Virus record (IMG/VR): IMGVR_UViG_3300045051_000854
Span: 1 to 34,890 of that record
DNA: 34,890 nt
Strand: one strand, 5' to 3'
Source of the DNA: a virus
The notes below the pieces were generated by a model that made no database searches, was not told the DNA's origin, and was given only the letters and a program-made list of their open reading frames with translations. A program made the translations under genes and the position numbers. Positions 3,676-30,763 of the stretch are shown here, in pieces; positions within the stretch are counted from its first letter, which is position 1; every line of letters starts with the position of its first letter.

Positions 3676-4749
3676 ATGGCGGTCTACCGGTACTTCGCTC
3701 ACGACCTGCGCACGAACGCCGCGCTGGCCGAGCTCCCACTCTCGTCGCTCACGTACACCGAGACCCTCAACGGGCCCGGGTCGTGGTCGGCGACGTGTCC
3801 GCTGCTCGGCAACGCCGTGCTGTTGAACGCCGCGACGGAACCGGAACGCACCGCGATCTACATCGAACGCGACGGCGCGATCGTCGGCGGTGGGATCGTG
3901 TGGACCCGCACCAGGAGTATGGATCAGCCGATGACGCTCGGCGGTGCGGGCTGGTGGTCGTTCTTCAAGCGGCAGAACCTGCGCTCGACGCTCACGTTCG
4001 CCGCTACCGATCAGCTGCTGATCGCCCGGACCCTGATCAACACCGCCCAGGCGCAGCCGGGCGCGAACATCGGGGTCACGGTCGGCGCTGAGGTGTCCGG
4101 CATCGCCCGTGATCGGGTCTACAACAGCTTCGAGTGCAAGCAGATCGCCGAGGCGGTCGAGCAGCTCGCCGACGTGCAGACCGGGTTCGACTTCGCGATC
4201 GACACCACCCAGGCCCGCGGCAAGGTCCTCGCGTTGAGCTACCCGCGCCGTGGCCGGATCTCCGGCAGCACCGGGATCGTGTTCGAGACCGGGAAGAACC
4301 TGATCGGCTACACCGCCACCCAGGACGGCACCCGGTCGGCTCGGACGTTCACCGCGATCGGCGCCGGCGACGGTGTCGACATGCTGATCGCGACGAACAC
4401 GCGCACCGACCTGCTCGACGCCGGGTTCCCGCTCACGAGTGACACCGGGTCGTTCAAGGATGTGATCGTGCAGGCGACCCTCGACGGGCACGCCCTCGCA
4501 GGTGTGAACGCTCGGGCGGTGACCCCGACGTTCTGGTCGATCGTCGTCGATCCTGATGACCCCGACGGTGGGATCAAGTCGTTCATCACCGGCGACGACG
4601 CGGTGCTGCGCATCGGCGACGACGTCAACTTCCCCCGCCAGGCCGACGGCAGTCCCGGCTATGAACGCGCGCACCGCATCCTCGAATGGTCGCTGAACGT
4701 CCCCGAGAGCGGCAAAGACACCCTCGGCGTCACTCTCGGCACGATCTGA
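3676..4749 (+). CDS. Minor tail protein, Gp37-like hub
   Basis: 357 residues, starting 3 bases after the previous stop. The N-terminal motif LTYTETLNGPGSWSA, followed by repeated short beta strands and a late VDPDDPDGG segment, resembles the ReqiPepy6 Gp37-like family of actinophage tail proteins (structural relatives of gp27/Tal hubs). Its place after Dit and before the side-tail proteins fits a baseplate hub that contacts the cell surface. No peptidase or lysozyme motif is visible. Confidence 0.72.
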   Translation: MAVYRYFAHDLRTNAALAELPLSSLTYTETLNGPGSWSATCPLLGNAVLLNAATEPERTAIYIERDGAIVGGGIVWTRTRSMDQPMTLGGAGWWSFFKRQNLRSTLTFAATDQLLIARTLINTAQAQPGANIGVTVGAEVSGIARDRVYNSFECKQIAEAVEQLADVQTGFDFAIDTTQARGKVLALSYPRRGRISGSTGIVFETGKNLIGYTATQDGTRSARTFTAIGAGDGVDMLIATNTRTDLLDAGFPLTSDTGSFKDVIVQATLDGHALAGVNARAVTPTFWSIVVDPDDPDGGIKSFITGDDAVLRIGDDVNFPRQADGSPGYERAHRILEWSLNVPESGKDTLGVTLGTI

Positions 4750-21430: not shown

Positions 21431-22231
21431 GTGACGTGGTTCAAGGTGGACGACAAGCTGCACTCGCACCCGAAATGGTGGGCGCTCTCCCCGAACGCGA
21501 AGGCGTTGTGGACGACCGCCGGGTCGTGGTGTTCGAGCTACAAGACCGACGGGTTGATCGCCGCGAACCAGCTGCCGATCCTCGCCCCCCAGGTCGGCCT
21601 CTCGGTCGTCAAGGTTCGTGCCGCAGCGATCGAGCTGACGGAGGCGGGGCTGTGGAAGCAGAACGAGGCGGCGAACGGCTGGGCGTTCCACAACTGGACC
21701 GACTTCAACCCCACCCGCCTGCAGCAGGACAAGGAAGCCGCCATCGAACGCGAACGGAAGAAGATCCAGAACGACCCGGACCTGAAGGCCGCAGTGCGTC
21801 TCCGGGACCGTGACCGCTGCCGCTACTGCCGCGAGCTCGTCAACTTCGCGGCCCGAACCGGCCACCTCGCTGGCCGCTACGACCACGTCGTCCCGGTCAC
21901 CAAGGGCGGCAAAACCGTGCTCGACAATGTGGTGGTTTGTTGCGACTACGACAACCGCCGCAAGTACAACAAGACCCTCGACGAAGCCGGAATGGTCCTG
22001 CTAGAGCCACCTGCGCCCGAGAAGACGGCTGAGCTGCGTCTCAGCTCCGGCTTAGAAAATGCTCAGTCTAAGACTAAGCCGGGACACGGGTCGGGTCTGG
22101 GCCGGGTCCTGGCCGGGCCGGGGCAGGACGGGCCGGGTCTGGACGGGTCTGGTGGTCGGGTCGGGTCGGGGAGCGCGGCCACCGCTCTCGCCGACAGGCC
22201 ACCGGTCGCACCCCCAGGAGAGGAGTTCTGA
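21431..22231 (+). CDS. Replication-organiser-like protein fused to HNH endonuclease
   Basis: 266 residues, GTG 21431. Residues about 1-100 (TWFKVDDKLHSHPKWWALS, EAGLWKQNEAANGWAFHNW) resemble the winged-helix N-terminal domain of phage replication organisers of the DnaD/ORF-type family. Residues about 115-185 are an HNH domain: RDRDRCRYC (C130, C133), YDHVVPVTKGG (D151, H152), N166 and C170. The tail (about 205-250) is Gly/Ser-rich and low in complexity (GLGRVLAGPGQ). It may load replication proteins at the origin and nick DNA; the fusion is inferred to be functional because both parts are intact. Confidence 0.75.
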   Translation: MTWFKVDDKLHSHPKWWALSPNAKALWTTAGSWCSSYKTDGLIAANQLPILAPQVGLSVVKVRAAAIELTEAGLWKQNEAANGWAFHNWTDFNPTRLQQDKEAAIERERKKIQNDPDLKAAVRLRDRDRCRYCRELVNFAARTGHLAGRYDHVVPVTKGGKTVLDNVVVCCDYDNRRKYNKTLDEAGMVLLEPPAPEKTAELRLSSGLENAQSKTKPGHGSGLGRVLAGPGQDGPGLDGSGGRVGSGSAATALADRPPVAPPGEEF

Positions 22232-24658: not shown

Positions 24659-26314
24659 GTGGCACTGCTGATGGTGCCGCCCCTCGACCCCAAGCCGTGG
24701 CCGACGCTCGGGCCGGGTGTGTGCGAGTGGATCGAGGACAACCTGGTGTTCGGGCCGGGCCCGTTGAAGGGCCAGCCGTACGTGATCGAGCCGGAGTTCC
24801 GTGCCGAGCTGTACCGCATGTACGAGCTGTTCCCCCGCGATCATCCTCGTGCTGGCCGGCGACGGTTCAAGCGTGTCGGCATGTCGAAGCGGAAGGGCAC
24901 CGCGAAGACCGAGAAGGCGGCGATCATCGCGGCCGCCGAGCTGGCGCCCGATGCGCCAGTGCGGTTCGATGGCTGGCGTAGGCAGGGGAGCAGCTGGTTT
25001 CCGGTCGGTCGGCCGGTCGCATCGCCGTACATCCCGATGCTCGCCTATACCGAGGAGCAGTCCGAGGATCTCGCCTACGGCGTGCTGCGCACGATCTTGG
25101 CCGAGTCGGCGATCGGTGATCACTTCGACATCGGGCTCGACCGGATCATCCGGTTGAACCACTGGGGGCGTGAGGACGGCAAGGCGCAGGCGTTGGCGTC
25201 GTCACCGAACGCTCGGGATGGTGCGCTCACCACGCACCAGCACTTCGACGAGACGCACCGCATGTATCAGCCGCGGCTCCGCAAGGCGCACGACACGATG
25301 CTGCAGAACACGTTCAAGCGTCGTGACGCTGACGCATGGACGTTGGAGACGACGACCCCGGGCGAGTTGGCGCAGGAATCGATCGCCCGTGACACCCACG
25401 AGCTCGCCGAGGCGATCGCCCACGGTGAGGTTGAGGAACCGCAGCTGTTCTACGTGCACCGGTTCGCTCCGCTTGAGCTGCCGTTGAACACGCCTCGCCA
25501 GGTGCGCGCTGCGCTCGTCGAGGCGACGGGGCCGGCGACATGGTCGGGTGACATCGATGCGCTGGTCGGCCAGTTCTTCGCCCCGAAGACGAACCGGCAG
25601 TACTTCCGCCGGGTGTGGCTCGGCCAGTGGGTCCCGGGCGGCGATCGGGCGTTCGACCTCGATGTGTGGCGCCACCTGGTGCACGACGAGCTCACCGACA
25701 TCGAACCTGGCCGGCTCGTCACCCTCGGCTTCGACGGTGCACGACGTCGTGACTCCACCGGTCTGGTGGCCACCGACGTCGAGTCCGGCTTCCAGAAGGT
25801 GCTCGGCTACTGGCCTCGACCCGATGACGCACCCGACGACTGGGAGGTGCCAGCCGCTGAGGTGGACCTGGCGGTCGAGTCGGCGTTCTCGACCTACAGC
25901 GTGTGGCGGTTGTACGCCGACCCGCCGTACTGGGATGAGTGGGTGGACTCGTGGGCGGGCCGGTACGGCGCCGAGCGTGTGGTGCGCTGGTGGACGAACC
26001 GTGACAAGGCGATGGCCGGCGCGCTGCGGGTGTTCAAGGATGCTCAGCTGACCGGCGACTTGTCTCATGACGGTGATGAGCGGTACGCAGCCCACATCGG
26101 CAACGCGTTCCGCAAGGACCTGCAGGTGCGTGTCGAGGATGGCGCTGAGCCGCTGTTCACGATCCGCAAGGAACGACCGGACTCGCCGTTGAAGATCGAC
26201 CTGGCGATGGCCGGCTGCCTGTCGTGGGAAGCCCGGGGCGATGCGATTGCCGCGGGTGCCAAGGCGGAGTCGACACGCTCGAAGTCGCGGGTGATGGGAA
26301 CGAGGAGGAGGTGA
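24659..26314 (+). CDS. Terminase large subunit
   Basis: 551 residues, GTG 24659. ATPase part at about 40-290: SKRKGTAKTE (76-85) stands where the Walker A loop is expected, and HFDETH (195-200) is the Walker B acidic motif. Nuclease part at about 350-530 with GFDG (D359), LYADPPYWDEW and later acidic residues, an RNase-H-like fold. It packages DNA into the procapsid and cuts it. The Walker A is atypical (no clear GKT/S); the residue doing that job is not certain. The next gene is portal, the standard order. Confidence 0.9.
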   Translation: MALLMVPPLDPKPWPTLGPGVCEWIEDNLVFGPGPLKGQPYVIEPEFRAELYRMYELFPRDHPRAGRRRFKRVGMSKRKGTAKTEKAAIIAAAELAPDAPVRFDGWRRQGSSWFPVGRPVASPYIPMLAYTEEQSEDLAYGVLRTILAESAIGDHFDIGLDRIIRLNHWGREDGKAQALASSPNARDGALTTHQHFDETHRMYQPRLRKAHDTMLQNTFKRRDADAWTLETTTPGELAQESIARDTHELAEAIAHGEVEEPQLFYVHRFAPLELPLNTPRQVRAALVEATGPATWSGDIDALVGQFFAPKTNRQYFRRVWLGQWVPGGDRAFDLDVWRHLVHDELTDIEPGRLVTLGFDGARRRDSTGLVATDVESGFQKVLGYWPRPDDAPDDWEVPAAEVDLAVESAFSTYSVWRLYADPPYWDEWVDSWAGRYGAERVVRWWTNRDKAMAGALRVFKDAQLTGDLSHDGDERYAAHIGNAFRKDLQVRVEDGAEPLFTIRKERPDSPLKIDLAMAGCLSWEARGDAIAAGAKAESTRSKSRVMGTRRR

Positions 26315-26317
26315 GCC

Positions 26318-27760
26318 GTGGCTGCAGTGAACTCGCCCGAGTGGTGGGCCGACCGGCTCTCCAAGAAGCTCTCCGCCCGTCAGTCGAAGCTCGAACGTCT
26401 CGAGCGCTACTACGACGGCAAGCAGCCGTTGTCGTTCGCTACGTCGCAGTTCCGGGCGGAGTTCGGGTCGATGTTGGCCGCGGTTCAGGACAACTGGTGC
26501 CAGCTGGTGGTGTCCGCTGTCGAGGAACGGCTCGACGTCGAGGGGTTCCGTGTCGGTGATGATGACCAGGCCGACGCTCAGGCGTGGAACCTGTGGCAGG
26601 CGAACGGACTCGACGCCGACAGTCAGGTGGCGCACACCGAGGCGTTGAAGCTGTCGGAGGCGCACGTCATCGTGTGGCGTCCCGATCTGGATGCGCCGCC
26701 GGTGATCACTGTGGAGCACCCGAAGTACGTCACGGTCGAGTTGGACCCGGAGAACCGTTCACGTCGACTTGCTGCGGCGAAGGTGTGGCGTGACCCAGAC
26801 GATGGCCGGCTGTGCACCGTCTATCTGCCTGATCGAATCGTGAAGCTGCGCGCTGGCCAGCGCGGTTGGGAACCCCGTCCGTCCGCCGGTGATCAGTGGC
26901 AGATCGACAACCCGCTCGGTGTGGTGCCGGTCGTGCCGCTGTTCAACCGGCCGGGTCTGCTGACCGAGGCGGCAAGCGAGATTGAGTCGATCCTGCCGAA
27001 GCAGGACATGGTCAACAAGCTGATCGCCGACATGATGATCGCCGCCGAGTACGGGGCGTTCCGGCAGCGTTGGGCGACGGGCATCGAGGTGCCTAAGGAC
27101 CCGATCACTGGCGAGGACCTCGAGGACTTTCAGACCGCAGTCGATCGGCTGTGGCATGTCCCGGCGCCGGACGCCAAGTTCGGCGAGTTCGAGCAGACCG
27201 ACCTCAACGTGTACGTGAAGGCGATCGAGATGCTCGTGCAGCACATCGCCAGCCAGACCGCCACCCCGCCGCACTACCTGCTCTCCACCGGCCAGCTGCC
27301 GTCGGGTGAGTCGCTTCGCGCTGCCGAGGCGCCGCTGGTGGCGAAGGCGCGTCGCAAGCAGCGGATCTTCGGCCAGGCGTGGGAAGAGGTGACACGGCTG
27401 GCGTTGCGGCTCGATGGCCGTGACGACGTCGATCAGTCGACGGTGATCGAGACGATCTGGCGTGACCCGGAAAACCGGACCGAAGCCGAGCACATCGACG
27501 CCGTGATCAAGCAGAAGGCGTTGGATGTGCCGATCGAGGAGCTGTGGCGCCTCGCAGGTTTCTCGCAGGTCGAAATCGACCGGATGCGCCGGCAGCGGGT
27601 CGAGCAGCTGACGATGCTGGCGCTCGGCCAGCCGATCACCGCGTTCGACGGCGAAGGCGTCCCTGCCGACGAGATCAAGACCCGCGCCGAGGCCGCTCAG
27701 GCGTTGGTTGCCGGCGGCATGTCGCTCGACGATGCGTTGCACAAGGCCGGCCTGGCCTGA
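26318..27760 (+). CDS. Portal protein (SPP1 gp6-like)
   Basis: 480 residues, GTG 26318, with GAGGAGGTGA just upstream. Portal pattern: N-terminal helical wing (RLSKKLSARQSKLERLERYY), DNWCQLVVSAVEERL, a middle beta part (VWRPDLDAPPVITVEHP), the clip region (VPVVPLFNRPG) and a C-terminal stem with helices (PLVAKARRKQRIFGQAWEE). It forms the ring at one vertex through which DNA is pumped. The DUF/Phage_prot_Gp6 family is common in actinophages. Stop overlaps the start of the next gene (TGATGG). Confidence 0.93.
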   Translation: MAAVNSPEWWADRLSKKLSARQSKLERLERYYDGKQPLSFATSQFRAEFGSMLAAVQDNWCQLVVSAVEERLDVEGFRVGDDDQADAQAWNLWQANGLDADSQVAHTEALKLSEAHVIVWRPDLDAPPVITVEHPKYVTVELDPENRSRRLAAAKVWRDPDDGRLCTVYLPDRIVKLRAGQRGWEPRPSAGDQWQIDNPLGVVPVVPLFNRPGLLTEAASEIESILPKQDMVNKLIADMMIAAEYGAFRQRWATGIEVPKDPITGEDLEDFQTAVDRLWHVPAPDAKFGEFEQTDLNVYVKAIEMLVQHIASQTATPPHYLLSTGQLPSGESLRAAEAPLVAKARRKQRIFGQAWEEVTRLALRLDGRDDVDQSTVIETIWRDPENRTEAEHIDAVIKQKALDVPIEELWRLAGFSQVEIDRMRRQRVEQLTMLALGQPITAFDGEGVPADEIKTRAEAAQALVAGGMSLDDALHKAGLA

Positions 27761-28485
27761 TGGTCGCCGAGGTTGAGCTCCGTCGGCTCGCCGTTCCGTA
27801 CCGTTCGCGGTTCGGTCAGGCGCTGATGGTCGCCGATCAGACGGTCACCCGGCTGTACGTCGCGACCGCCCCGACCGACGTCGACTTGTGGGTGACGACA
27901 GCGGTCCCGGTGGTGCAGGGGCTGCAGCAGGCGTTGATCGCCCTCGCCCAGCGGTACACGGCTTCGCAGCTCGAGCTGTTCACCCCGACCCGACCGGTTC
28001 GCCTGGTCGATGTCGCCGACGAGCTCCTCGTGCGCACCGACACGCCGTGGTTGCGTAGCCCGATGCTGCGTGAACGCCGACTGGTTGCGGTGGGTCTCCC
28101 GCCGTCGGAGGCACGGCAGCGTGCAGCTGGCTACGCCGGAGATCTGATGACCGCAGAAGCTCGGGTGACTGAGCGGGCTGCGGCCACGGCGACCTATCGG
28201 CAGCACTGGGACACTCGTGCACCGTTGAAGTATCGGCGGATCCTGGAGGGTGGTGCGTGCGGCTGGTGCCGTGTCGTGGCCGACCGGTTGTACAGCGCCG
28301 ACGACAGCGGCAAGTGGCACGCCCACTGCCGGTGCACGTGGCGGCTGATCACCCCGGCCGAGGCAGAGGCGCACGAGCCGAAGTTCACCGGTGACCGATG
28401 GAAGGACGTGATCAACGAGCGTGCGACGCGCCCGGTTGAGAGCCGCCGCCAGGTCCCCGATCTCACCCCGGTCCCCGCCGGCTGA
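27760..28485 (+). CDS. MuF-like capsid maturation protein
   Basis: 241 residues from ATG 27760. N-terminal 150 residues helical (VQGLQQALIALAQRYTASQL). The C-terminal part holds the MuF signature: GGACGWCRVVADRLYS (C167, C170) and WHAHCRCTWR (H187, H189, C190, C192), probably a zinc site. MuF proteins sit inside the capsid, bound to the portal, and leave with the DNA in some phages. No toxin domain is fused to it. Position between portal and scaffold is standard. Confidence 0.85.
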   Translation: MVAEVELRRLAVPYRSRFGQALMVADQTVTRLYVATAPTDVDLWVTTAVPVVQGLQQALIALAQRYTASQLELFTPTRPVRLVDVADELLVRTDTPWLRSPMLRERRLVAVGLPPSEARQRAAGYAGDLMTAEARVTERAAATATYRQHWDTRAPLKYRRILEGGACGWCRVVADRLYSADDSGKWHAHCRCTWRLITPAEAEAHEPKFTGDRWKDVINERATRPVESRRQVPDLTPVPAG

Positions 28486-28507: not shown

Positions 28508-28530
28508 GCTTCAAACAGGAGGTTGCCGCG

Positions 28531-29199
28531 ATGGCACCGACCACTCACCGTCCCTTCACCCTCGTGCGAGGCGTGCTTCTCCGTCACCCCGAGAAGGAGG
28601 ACAACGGCACCACCGATGGCGCCGACAGCGATCACGGAGACGCGACCGCCGGCAGCGATCTGGGTGAGGCTGGCAAGAAGGCGCTCGACGAAGAACGTCG
28701 GGCCCGTCGGGCGGCGGAGAAGCAGGCCAAGGATCAGGCGACACAGCTGGCGACGTTGCAGCAACAGCTCGACGAGCTCAGCAAGAAGAACCAGACCGAC
28801 GACGAACGCAAGCTCGCCGAAGCGGTCGAGGCCGCCAAGGCCGACGCTGTGAAGGCGCTGCAGGATCAGTTCGCCGGGCAGCTCGCGGAGAAGGATCGCC
28901 AGATTGTCGGCGCCCGTCTCACGGCGATCGCTGCTGGCAAGCTGACGAACCCGGCCGATGTGCTGGCGTTCGTCGATCTCGACGACCTCGACCGCGACGG
29001 CGAGGGCAACGTCACCGACAAGGCCCTCTCGGGGGCCGTCGAGGAGCTCCTGAAGGAGCGTCCCTATCTGGCTGCGACGGCTGGCAAGGGTGGAGGGTCC
29101 GTCGATCAGGGTCGCCGCAAGGACGGCCCGGTCGACTTCAAGGACCGCAAGCAGTTGGCTGCCGATCTGGCCAAGTTCGGTCTGACCCCGCGCGGATGA
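28531..29199 (+). CDS. Capsid scaffolding protein with N-terminal cleavage-type peptide
   Basis: 222 residues from ATG 28531; AGGAGG at 28518-28523 is a strong ribosome site. The N-terminal 20 residues contain THR (5-7) and VRGVLLRHP (12-20), almost the same peptide as in the capsid protein. Then an acidic linker (DNGTTDGADSDHGD), a long coiled coil (about 50-115, rich in Ala, Glu, Lys and Gln), and a more hydrophobic C-terminal part. Charge pattern and place between portal/MuF and capsid define it as a scaffold, which shapes the procapsid and is removed before DNA fills it. Stop overlaps the next ATG. Confidence 0.88.
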   Translation: MAPTTHRPFTLVRGVLLRHPEKEDNGTTDGADSDHGDATAGSDLGEAGKKALDEERRARRAAEKQAKDQATQLATLQQQLDELSKKNQTDDERKLAEAVEAAKADAVKALQDQFAGQLAEKDRQIVGARLTAIAAGKLTNPADVLAFVDLDDLDRDGEGNVTDKALSGAVEELLKERPYLAATAGKGGGSVDQGRRKDGPVDFKDRKQLAADLAKFGLTPRG

Positions 29200-29381
29200 T
29201 CCGTGCCGAGGTGCTCGACCGTGACGGCGAGTGGCAGCTGACGATCTCCGGGCATTCACGCGATGTGGCGTGCGCGGCGGTCACCGCCATGGAGCAAACC
29301 GTGGCGATCTGGTTGGAGCAGCTCGCCGAGTTGAACCCGACCGACATCCAGTTCACCTACCGCCAGGAGGCAACACCATGA
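29196..29381 (+). CDS. prp: Prp-like cysteine protease (YsxB/DUF464 type), minimal form
   Basis: 61 residues, ATG 29196 overlapping the scaffold stop. The start MIRAEVLDRDGEWQLTISGH and the following DVACAAVTAM fit the ribosomal-processing cysteine protease Prp, whose core is a GHA motif and DIVCAxxS; here GHS (H20) and VACAAVT (C26) are the likely catalytic pair. The loop between them is about 6 residues shorter than in S. aureus Prp, and the protein is about 45 residues shorter in total. Prp is known to clip N-terminal extensions of ribosomal protein L27 and of scaffold and capsid proteins of staphylococcal phage. Here it sits between the scaffold and capsid genes, which share an N-terminal peptide, so it is probably the head protease. 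Confidence 0.72.
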   Translation: MIRAEVLDRDGEWQLTISGHSRDVACAAVTAMEQTVAIWLEQLAELNPTDIQFTYRQEATP

Positions 29382-30763
29382 ACACCCTCATCGTGCTGCT
29401 CGCCATCACACTCGTCGTGGCCGCAGCCTTCACCATCATCCGTGGCTCCGCCCACGGCATCGCCCGCACCCATCGCACTCAGGTGCGCTCGGTGCTGCTC
29501 CGCCACCCCGTCCGTGATGTGCTCCCTGCAGCTCTGCAGGCACAGATCCAGGACGGCATGTTGGAGGCGGCGTTCGACAACGCCCTGCGGCCCGACTTCC
29601 TGTTCCCCGCAGCTGCGGTGTCCGACCCGGTGTCGGGTGGGGTCGGTCAGCGGATCACCCGCACTCGTACCGGTCTGCTCACGCCAACCACCACGGCAAT
29701 CACCGGGTCCGATCCGGCTGCCGCCACCTACTCGATCGAGCAGTACTCCGGTGTGCTCGATCAGTACGGCAACTCGGTCGACACCAACATGCTCGGCTCG
29801 GCCGTTGGCCAGGCGTCGAAGTTCGTCCGCGACGTCGTCACGTTGGGCATCAACGCCGGCCAGTCCCTCAACCGGCTGTGCCGTGACCGCCTGTACCGCG
29901 TGTACAACGGCGGCCGCACCTGGTGCCGCACCGCTGACGGCGGATCCAACACGACGATCGACGTGAGCTCGGTCGACGGGTTCGAGTTCGTGCTCGTCAA
30001 CGGTGTCCCGACCGCAGTGTCGGCATCGACCCCGCTGAGCGTCACCGTCAACGGTGTCGCCAACACGGTGACCGGTGTCAACCGTGCCGCCCGCACCTTG
30101 ACGCTTGGCACCGCCCGCGTCGATGTGCTCGGCGACCCGATCGTCGCCGTGAACGCCCCGGTCACGCTGCGTCCGAACGCTCGGACCACGGCCTTCACCC
30201 TGATCGGCACTGACAACGCCACGGTCGGTCTGTTCTTCGACGCGGTCGCCCGACTGCGCGCGATGAACGTCCCGACGTTTCCCGACGGCAACTACCAGGC
30301 GCACGTGGATGCGACCACGATGCGGCAGCTGCTGTCGGACACCGAGTTCCGTCAGGCCTTCCAGAGCCAGGGTCCGAGCGACACCTACACCCAGGGTCGC
30401 CTGACGATCTTCGGTGGTGTGGCGTTCACCCTCAACATCGAGGCCCCGACGTTCAGCGGTGACGGCCAGGCACTCACGGTCCGTCGCCCGATCGTGCTCG
30501 GCGCCGAGCCGGTGATCGCCATGCCCCTCGAGGATCAGGGGATGCTCATCGACGAGACCCCCGTCTCCGATGTCCCCGGGATCAGCCTCATCGAGGTCGC
30601 CCCGCAGAGCCAGGTTGCGCTGATCGTGCGCCCGCCGCAGGACCGCCTGCAGCAGGTGATCAGCTCGAGCTGGGCATGGACCGGGGACTACGCCGTCCCG
30701 ACCGACTCAACGACCGGTGACTCGGCGATCGCCAAGCGCGCCGTCGTCATCGAGCACATCTGA
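29378..30763 (+). CDS. Major capsid protein with N-terminal membrane segment
   Basis: 461 residues from ATG 29378, with an ideal AGGAGG 7 nt upstream and overlap with the prp stop. Residues 3-21 form a hydrophobic segment (TLIVLLAITLVVAAAFTII), followed by basic residues and THR (31-33), then VRSVLLRHP (36-44), as in the scaffold. HK97-type capsid body from about residue 55 (DGMLEAAFDNALRPDFLFP, then NSVDTNMLGSAVGQASKFV). Around 190-270 there is a beta-rich Ig-like insertion (VNGVPTAVSASTPLSVTVNG). C-terminus typical (GDSAIAKRAVVIEHI). Basic residues after the membrane segment place the body in the cytoplasm. The leader is unusual for a capsid protein and is probably clipped off at the shared peptide. 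Confidence 0.85.
   Translation: MNTLIVLLAITLVVAAAFTIIRGSAHGIARTHRTQVRSVLLRHPVRDVLPAALQAQIQDGMLEAAFDNALRPDFLFPAAAVSDPVSGGVGQRITRTRTGLLTPTTTAITGSDPAAATYSIEQYSGVLDQYGNSVDTNMLGSAVGQASKFVRDVVTLGINAGQSLNRLCRDRLYRVYNGGRTWCRTADGGSNTTIDVSSVDGFEFVLVNGVPTAVSASTPLSVTVNGVANTVTGVNRAARTLTLGTARVDVLGDPIVAVNAPVTLRPNARTTAFTLIGTDNATVGLFFDAVARLRAMNVPTFPDGNYQAHVDATTMRQLLSDTEFRQAFQSQGPSDTYTQGRLTIFGGVAFTLNIEAPTFSGDGQALTVRRPIVLGAEPVIAMPLEDQGMLIDETPVSDVPGISLIEVAPQSQVALIVRPPQDRLQQVISSSWAWTGDYAVPTDSTTGDSAIAKRAVVIEHI

Follow-up and report, generated by a model that had tools for sequence, protein, structure and literature searches.

The cysteine protease Prp is essential for the ribosome of its bacterial host, and the Prp family has been proposed as an antibiotic target. 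Host Prp is also known to cut proteins of phage 80alpha, a role that is hard to probe in this phage, as the host cannot do without the enzyme for its ribosome. The S. aureus enzyme needs residues H22, C34 and S38 and contains, between the histidine and the cysteine, a flexible 11-residue loop with G29 and D31 that is important for activity; its classical site is F-N-L-Q-F-F↓A, with the arrow marking the cut (PMC9405229). The N-terminal sequence of the 80alpha scaffold is essential, whereas its cleavage is dispensable (PMC5744158). Full-length Prp genes, together with the classical site, are also visible but unremarked in records of Firmicutes phages. They lie in the head operons of Brochothrix BL3, Lactococcus PLgT-1 and TP712, Enterococcus phiFL3A, Dorea DO134P1 and contig L121, and are labelled 'peptidase', 'ribosomal protein' or 'unknown'. 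In the literature searched, no paper treats a full-length or shortened phage Prp as a head-processing system, and an earlier mention is possible.

This work describes a phage head operon with a 61-aa gene that we consider, based on sequence comparisons, to be probably a shortened, phage-dedicated Prp-type cysteine protease (further mini-Prp), trimming the tagged scaffold and capsid precursors through R-H. We follow the gene and the tags through a clade of related loci and weigh the alternatives.

Layout of the head gene region

The window analyzed here corresponds to a complete IMG/VR virus record, 34,890 bases long. The following features are relevant to the head gene region:

24659-26314, + strand: large terminase, as context (phrog_9, 1e-52)
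26318-27760, + strand: portal protein, as context (PF05133, 2e-33)
27754-28485, + strand: VG15/MuF-type minor head protein (PF25310 VG15, 29.2 bits over cut-off; phrog_1522)
28517-28522, + strand: AGGAGG ribosome site of the scaffold gene
28531-29199, + strand: scaffolding protein gene, 222 aa (PF06810 Phage_scaffold, 40.4 bits over cut-off; phrog_4708 head scaffolding, 6e-27)
28564-28590, + strand: tag peptide VRGVLLRHP, scaffold residues 12-20
29196-29381, + strand: mini-Prp gene, 61 aa, with G19-H20, C26 and T30 (PF04327)
29365-29370, + strand: AGGAGG ribosome-binding site of the capsid gene, 7 nt before the ATG, read directly
29378-30763, + strand: major capsid protein precursor, 461 aa (phrog_1357 major head protein, 1.5e-16)
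29384-29440, + strand: hydrophobic, membrane-helix-like segment, capsid residues 3-21, followed by basic residues (Kyte-Doolittle 19-residue mean 2.83)
29483-29509, + strand: tag peptide VRSVLLRHP, capsid residues 36-44, with the predicted cut after R42-H43

The ORF positions, overlaps, residues and codons given in the initial annotation were all correct on re-reading. This includes the placement of the 61-residue gene between the scaffold and capsid genes, which it joins through an ATGA overlap at each junction. The capsid gene runs from the ATG at 29378 to the stop at 30763, and its product matches the N4-gp56-type capsid profile TIGR04387 at 7e-7, under the cut-off of that profile. An HNH endonuclease gene (PF01844) is located at 21431-22228, upstream of the terminase region.

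Family and fold of the small protein

The Prp layout initially read in the small gene (GHS, then DVACAAVT) is borne out by profile comparison. The window protein matches PF04327 (cysteine protease Prp) with 1.1e-5 and 26.0 bits, 1 bit short of the cut-off of 27, and is also matched by PHROG 4478 'peptidase'. A tblastn search with this protein in phage records and a single-sequence scan of viral contigs returned nothing, and the search had to be based on six aligned relatives. PF04327 is matched by all 67 aligned relatives (best 8.1e-10), among which M1, G19, H20, C26, A27 and P48 are invariant, and the residue at C+4, equivalent to S38, is Ser in 52 and Thr in 15. H20 and C26 correspond to the catalytic H22 and C34 of the S. 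aureus enzyme, the Cys being placed where helix 1 begins. With the catalytic residues kept in 67/67 proteins, the 61-aa ORF is confirmed, at the level of sequence, as a real Prp homologue. The dN/dS of the gene between window-clade pairs (0.38 to 0.95) gives a moderately clear signal and was therefore kept out of the main evidence.

The distance between His and Cys is 6 in the window clade and 10-12 elsewhere, mostly 10 in other phages and 12 in S. aureus Prp. The window clade also has no equivalent of the loop glycine G29, the proposed hinge in the S. aureus enzyme, and an Asp at C-3 occurs in the window protein only. Judged from the alignment, the window clade has no S. aureus-type active-site loop, which bears on activity and not on homology.

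The AlphaFold2 model of the window mini-Prp, for which one row taken from a phage record was omitted from the input alignment, is a confident beta-beta-alpha fold (pLDDT 92.8). When the model of relative L018, which has a longer loop, was submitted to VIA-align, the Prp structures 1s12 (Z 4.8, rmsd 2.3, 54 aa) and 2g0i (Z 4.7, rmsd 2.4, 55 aa) ranked first and second, with the alignment covering the second half of both chains. The PDB matches of the window's own model in VIA-align include no Prp row, and Foldseek against the PDB gave nothing significant for either model; for so small a domain, such negatives do not speak against the fold.

Several comparisons indicate where the protein is shortened. 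A profile built from the phage proteins hits S. aureus Prp (4peo) in two places (query 1-37 on 1-41 and query 36-60 on 82-106), and five full-length phage Prps give the same two-part match to the mini-Prp profile. The pattern is found again in the alignment of the mini-Prp with the L121 Prp, and positions 75-109 of the 113 in the NCBIfam Prp profile fit L018. The second-part matches are individually weak (4-9 bits), yet all agree in direction. All point the same way, namely to a mini-Prp that would lack about 40 internal residues, with helix 1 continuing into the end of helix 2. It looks like one beta-beta-alpha unit of an apparent two-unit Prp fold, and since one unit is left, homodimerisation that would rebuild the two-unit fold is a reasonable guess. 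Because of its score against the ribosomal-processing Prp equivalog (NCBIfam PRK14553; 17.1 bits, cut-off 136), its length of 61 aa and the missing internal residues, the mini-Prp is not classed as a ribosomal-processing Prp. With about half the usual length, it may be smaller than any other Prp known and could show which minimal unit suffices for catalysis in the family. The mini-Prp frame of L002 (3739-4005) extends 28 Arg/Pro-rich residues past the usual end, and this extension overlaps the hydrophobic capsid segment in another frame.

A matched tag on scaffold and capsid precursors

The scaffold and the capsid protein are non-homologous, and the peptides that they share (VRGVLLRHP and VRSVLLRHP) are identical at eight of nine positions, exactly as initially noted. 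Within the first 60 residues of both proteins, no pair of 9-mers matches better; among 3000 shuffles, 7/9 occurred once and 8/9 never, and the analytic expectation is about 1e-5. The third-base differences in three of the eight shared codons were confirmed. Recent copying of the peptide had been considered unlikely, and we likewise rejected a recent duplication, as the tags are conserved, yet non-identical, in L002-L005 and dozens more. The THR preceding both peptides does occur in both proteins, but 4 versus 2 residues ahead; being out of register and absent from the nearest relative, L002, it is regarded as noise.

The co-occurrence of the small gene with a tag in both its neighbours, which the initial annotation had suggested looking for in related phages, was found in 87 of the 89 Prp-bearing loci with enough scaffold sequence. 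The two misses are L014, of which the scaffold is cut off, and L065, which has no tag in the frame read and may contain a frame error. The 8/9 identity in the window is at the high end, as the relatives conserve only the core F/V-x-L-x-R-H. Their consensus is W-F-x-L-x-R-H-D, in which the L position is taken by L, I, V, M or F, the R is near invariant and the H is sometimes F. Tags from the same locus resemble each other more (5.70 of 9) than tags from shuffled pairs (5.20 of 9), and 0/5000 shuffles reached the value of the own pairs. The scaffolds of Lactococcus TP712 (FNLQRF↓A) and L069 (FNLARF↓D) resemble each other at this site, and the actinobacterial tag is therefore read as a derivative of the Prp site, with the cut expected after H. 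Hence, the initial proposal of an own shortened Prp with a new recognition peptide stands for the phage-borne Prp, but the peptide is derived from the known Prp site and not wholly new.

Pro directly follows R-H in both proteins in three of the four window-clade members having a scaffold; at P1', Pro is a poor residue for most cysteine proteases. Kineosporia L027 (107-1701) has the Prp gene and a degenerate capsid tag (WLRVPFQRAAVASHD), with the scaffold cut off, possibly a step in the loss or change of recognition. L023 (from 3902) and L080 (from 3887) have two tandem tag copies on the capsid N-terminus (SWFRLDRHDG ... PWFDLGRHDV).

The segment ahead of the tag varies in length from 8 to 37 residues and may even be membrane-like; this freedom to vary fits a discarded piece. 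The hydrophobic stretch of the window capsid has a counterpart of different sequence in L002 (KD19 2.83, 3923-3985) and is absent from the sisters L031-L033. It is doubtful, though conceivable, that in this phage the first 21 residues would form a membrane helix tethering the capsid precursor and that the half-sized Prp, perhaps as homodimer with a rebuilt two-half fold, would cut behind them at the tag to free capsid subunits for assembly.

Distribution across the capsid clade and its hosts

Scans with the capsid and Prp alignments yielded about 94 distinct capsid relatives whose gene is immediately preceded by a Prp gene. They belong to prophages of Streptomyces, Nonomuraea, Glycomyces, Actinoallomurus, Catenulispora and others, and to phage Kromp, and the hosts, where known, are Actinomycetota. 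A further scan gave 74 Prp-less, more distant capsid homologues, of which L067 was excluded as it is cut at a contig edge. The remaining 73 sister capsids have no significant Prp match on either strand and no N-terminal extension, and no tag was found in their capsid N-termini or upstream ORFs (61 loci with at least 900 upstream bases). The counter-case named initially, a motif kept without the protease, was found in none of these 73 sisters.

The Prp-less capsids start with M-A-I-x-N-F-P. In 56 of them the Met lies six residues ahead of the core Pro, a position held in most tagged capsids by the residue that follows R-H. As these starts coincide, the tagged N-terminus is taken to be an added piece, the removal of which would restore the family start. 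The cut position predicted for the window capsid follows from this register, and the tag-less sisters indicate the expected form of the trimmed capsid protein. All Prp-bearing capsids fall within one clade in a tree of 80 capsids (1 change, support 96/95), with the window, L002 and L031-L033 as an early branch. Since the tree needs a single gain, the co-occurrence represents one event kept many times. The initial annotation had described the system for a single phage; it is present here, but the trait belongs to the entire clade.

On the host side, 294 of 296 genomes of actinobacteria, the phylum of the L012 host, have no PF04327 match, the two matches being the L012 host's own prophage and a weak partial match with an internal stop. 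L27 starts at MAHKKGA, without an N-terminal extension, in five hosts of relatives. The phage mini-Prp probably has no ribosomal job, and with hosts devoid of the L27 extension (n = 5) and sampled actinobacteria devoid of Prp, a phage-dedicated system is the best reading.

Proposed mechanism and alternatives

We infer from these comparisons that the mini-Prp cuts, where it does so and that this serves assembly. The mini-Prp would be translated from the same head operon as both substrates and recognize the N-terminal tag, V-L-L-R-H here and W-F-x-L-x-R-H in relatives. It would remove the peptide through R-H from the scaffold and capsid precursors, after which the capsid N-terminus would match that of the tag-less relatives. 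Cutting may time or license the assembly of heads, an idea also raised for 80alpha and host Prp. The self-contained head protease system proposed in the initial annotation is largely supported by the Prp homology, the conserved catalytic residues, the matched tags and the near all-or-none co-occurrence; its cleavage step is a prediction, for which the Pro at P1' and the short loop call for caution.

The mini-Prp could instead bind the tag without cutting, as a Prp-derived chaperone or adaptor that joins the precursors, most likely in the window's branch. Because cleavage of the 80alpha scaffold is dispensable while its N-terminus is essential (PMC5744158), a binding role has some probability. 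It is highest for the window clade, given a very short His-Cys loop that has lost residues and a Pro after R-H in both tags of three out of four members. We nevertheless consider this unlikely: His, Cys and Ser/Thr are kept in all 67 proteins, those of the window clade included, and the piece ahead of the tag is unconstrained, and hydrophobic in two members, which would be hard to retain in a finished shell. The occurrence of one peptide on two proteins that must co-assemble would also suit an assembly signal independent of the small gene, such as a scaffold-capsid contact or a host-chaperone site, but as the tag and the Prp gene are present or absent together and the tag can be aligned to the established Prp site, this is very improbable. 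Least probable of all is a cut by another enzyme, either a host protease or the product of the upstream gene that phrog_1522 and the Kromp record call a head or capsid maturation protease, as the sampled actinobacteria have no Prp and Pfam assigns the upstream gene to the VG15/MuF type, without any match to a peptidase family. The gene at 27754-28485 was rejected as tag cutter on this ground, and the names 'head maturation protease' (PHROGs) and 'capsid maturation protease' (Kromp) are probably misnomers. The preferred reading thus remains trimming by the mini-Prp.

Comparison with known systems

HK97-type prohead proteases, which act with delta-domain capsids, are larger, unrelated enzymes and have no separate tagged scaffold; what they have in common with the system proposed here is that a phage enzyme removes an N-terminal peptide from the capsid protein as the head assembles. 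According to the literature, Firmicutes should encode their own Prp. As in the window, the Firmicutes phages encode their Prp close to the genes for scaffold and capsid, and the site is present in both head proteins. However, their Prps count about 95-109 aa, use the classical NLQxF(A) site and are encoded upstream of the scaffold, whereas the mini-Prp gene lies between scaffold and capsid. In the low-GC phage contig L121 (3590-6113), a full-length Prp gene immediately precedes the scaffold and capsid genes, which both carry NLQLF↓AD.

Within the actinobacterial clade, gp6 of Streptomyces phage Kromp ('protease', MH744420) is the same small gene in the order scaffold - gp6 - capsid, with tags WFQLTRHD / WFRLDRHD, and the window mini-Prp shares 66% identity with UniProt A0A6J5LQL6 ('Cysteine protease Prp'). 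Both names are database labels only, with no tag, substrate or mechanism given in the records or papers found.

The closest described system is S. aureus Prp (PF04327; PDB 4PEO, 7KLD) acting on L27 and on the 80alpha scaffold and capsid proteins, to which the mini-Prp is homologous. Both systems have the G-H ... C ... S/T residues, an N-terminal tag on scaffold and capsid, and the tag core F-x-L-x-x-[F/H]. S. aureus Prp is host-encoded, has 106 aa, also serves the ribosome and uses an LKxNLQxF↓A site. In contrast, the mini-Prp is phage-encoded, has 61 aa and a predicted [W]F-x-L-x-R-H site, and there is no tagged L27 in five hosts. What is new is a phage Prp that, as judged from the alignments, keeps the catalytic His, Cys and Ser/Thr without about 40 internal residues, in a phylum of which the sampled members have no Prp. 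Both the putative enzyme and its substrates are phage genes in Prp-less hosts, and the enzyme can therefore be deleted or mutated freely.
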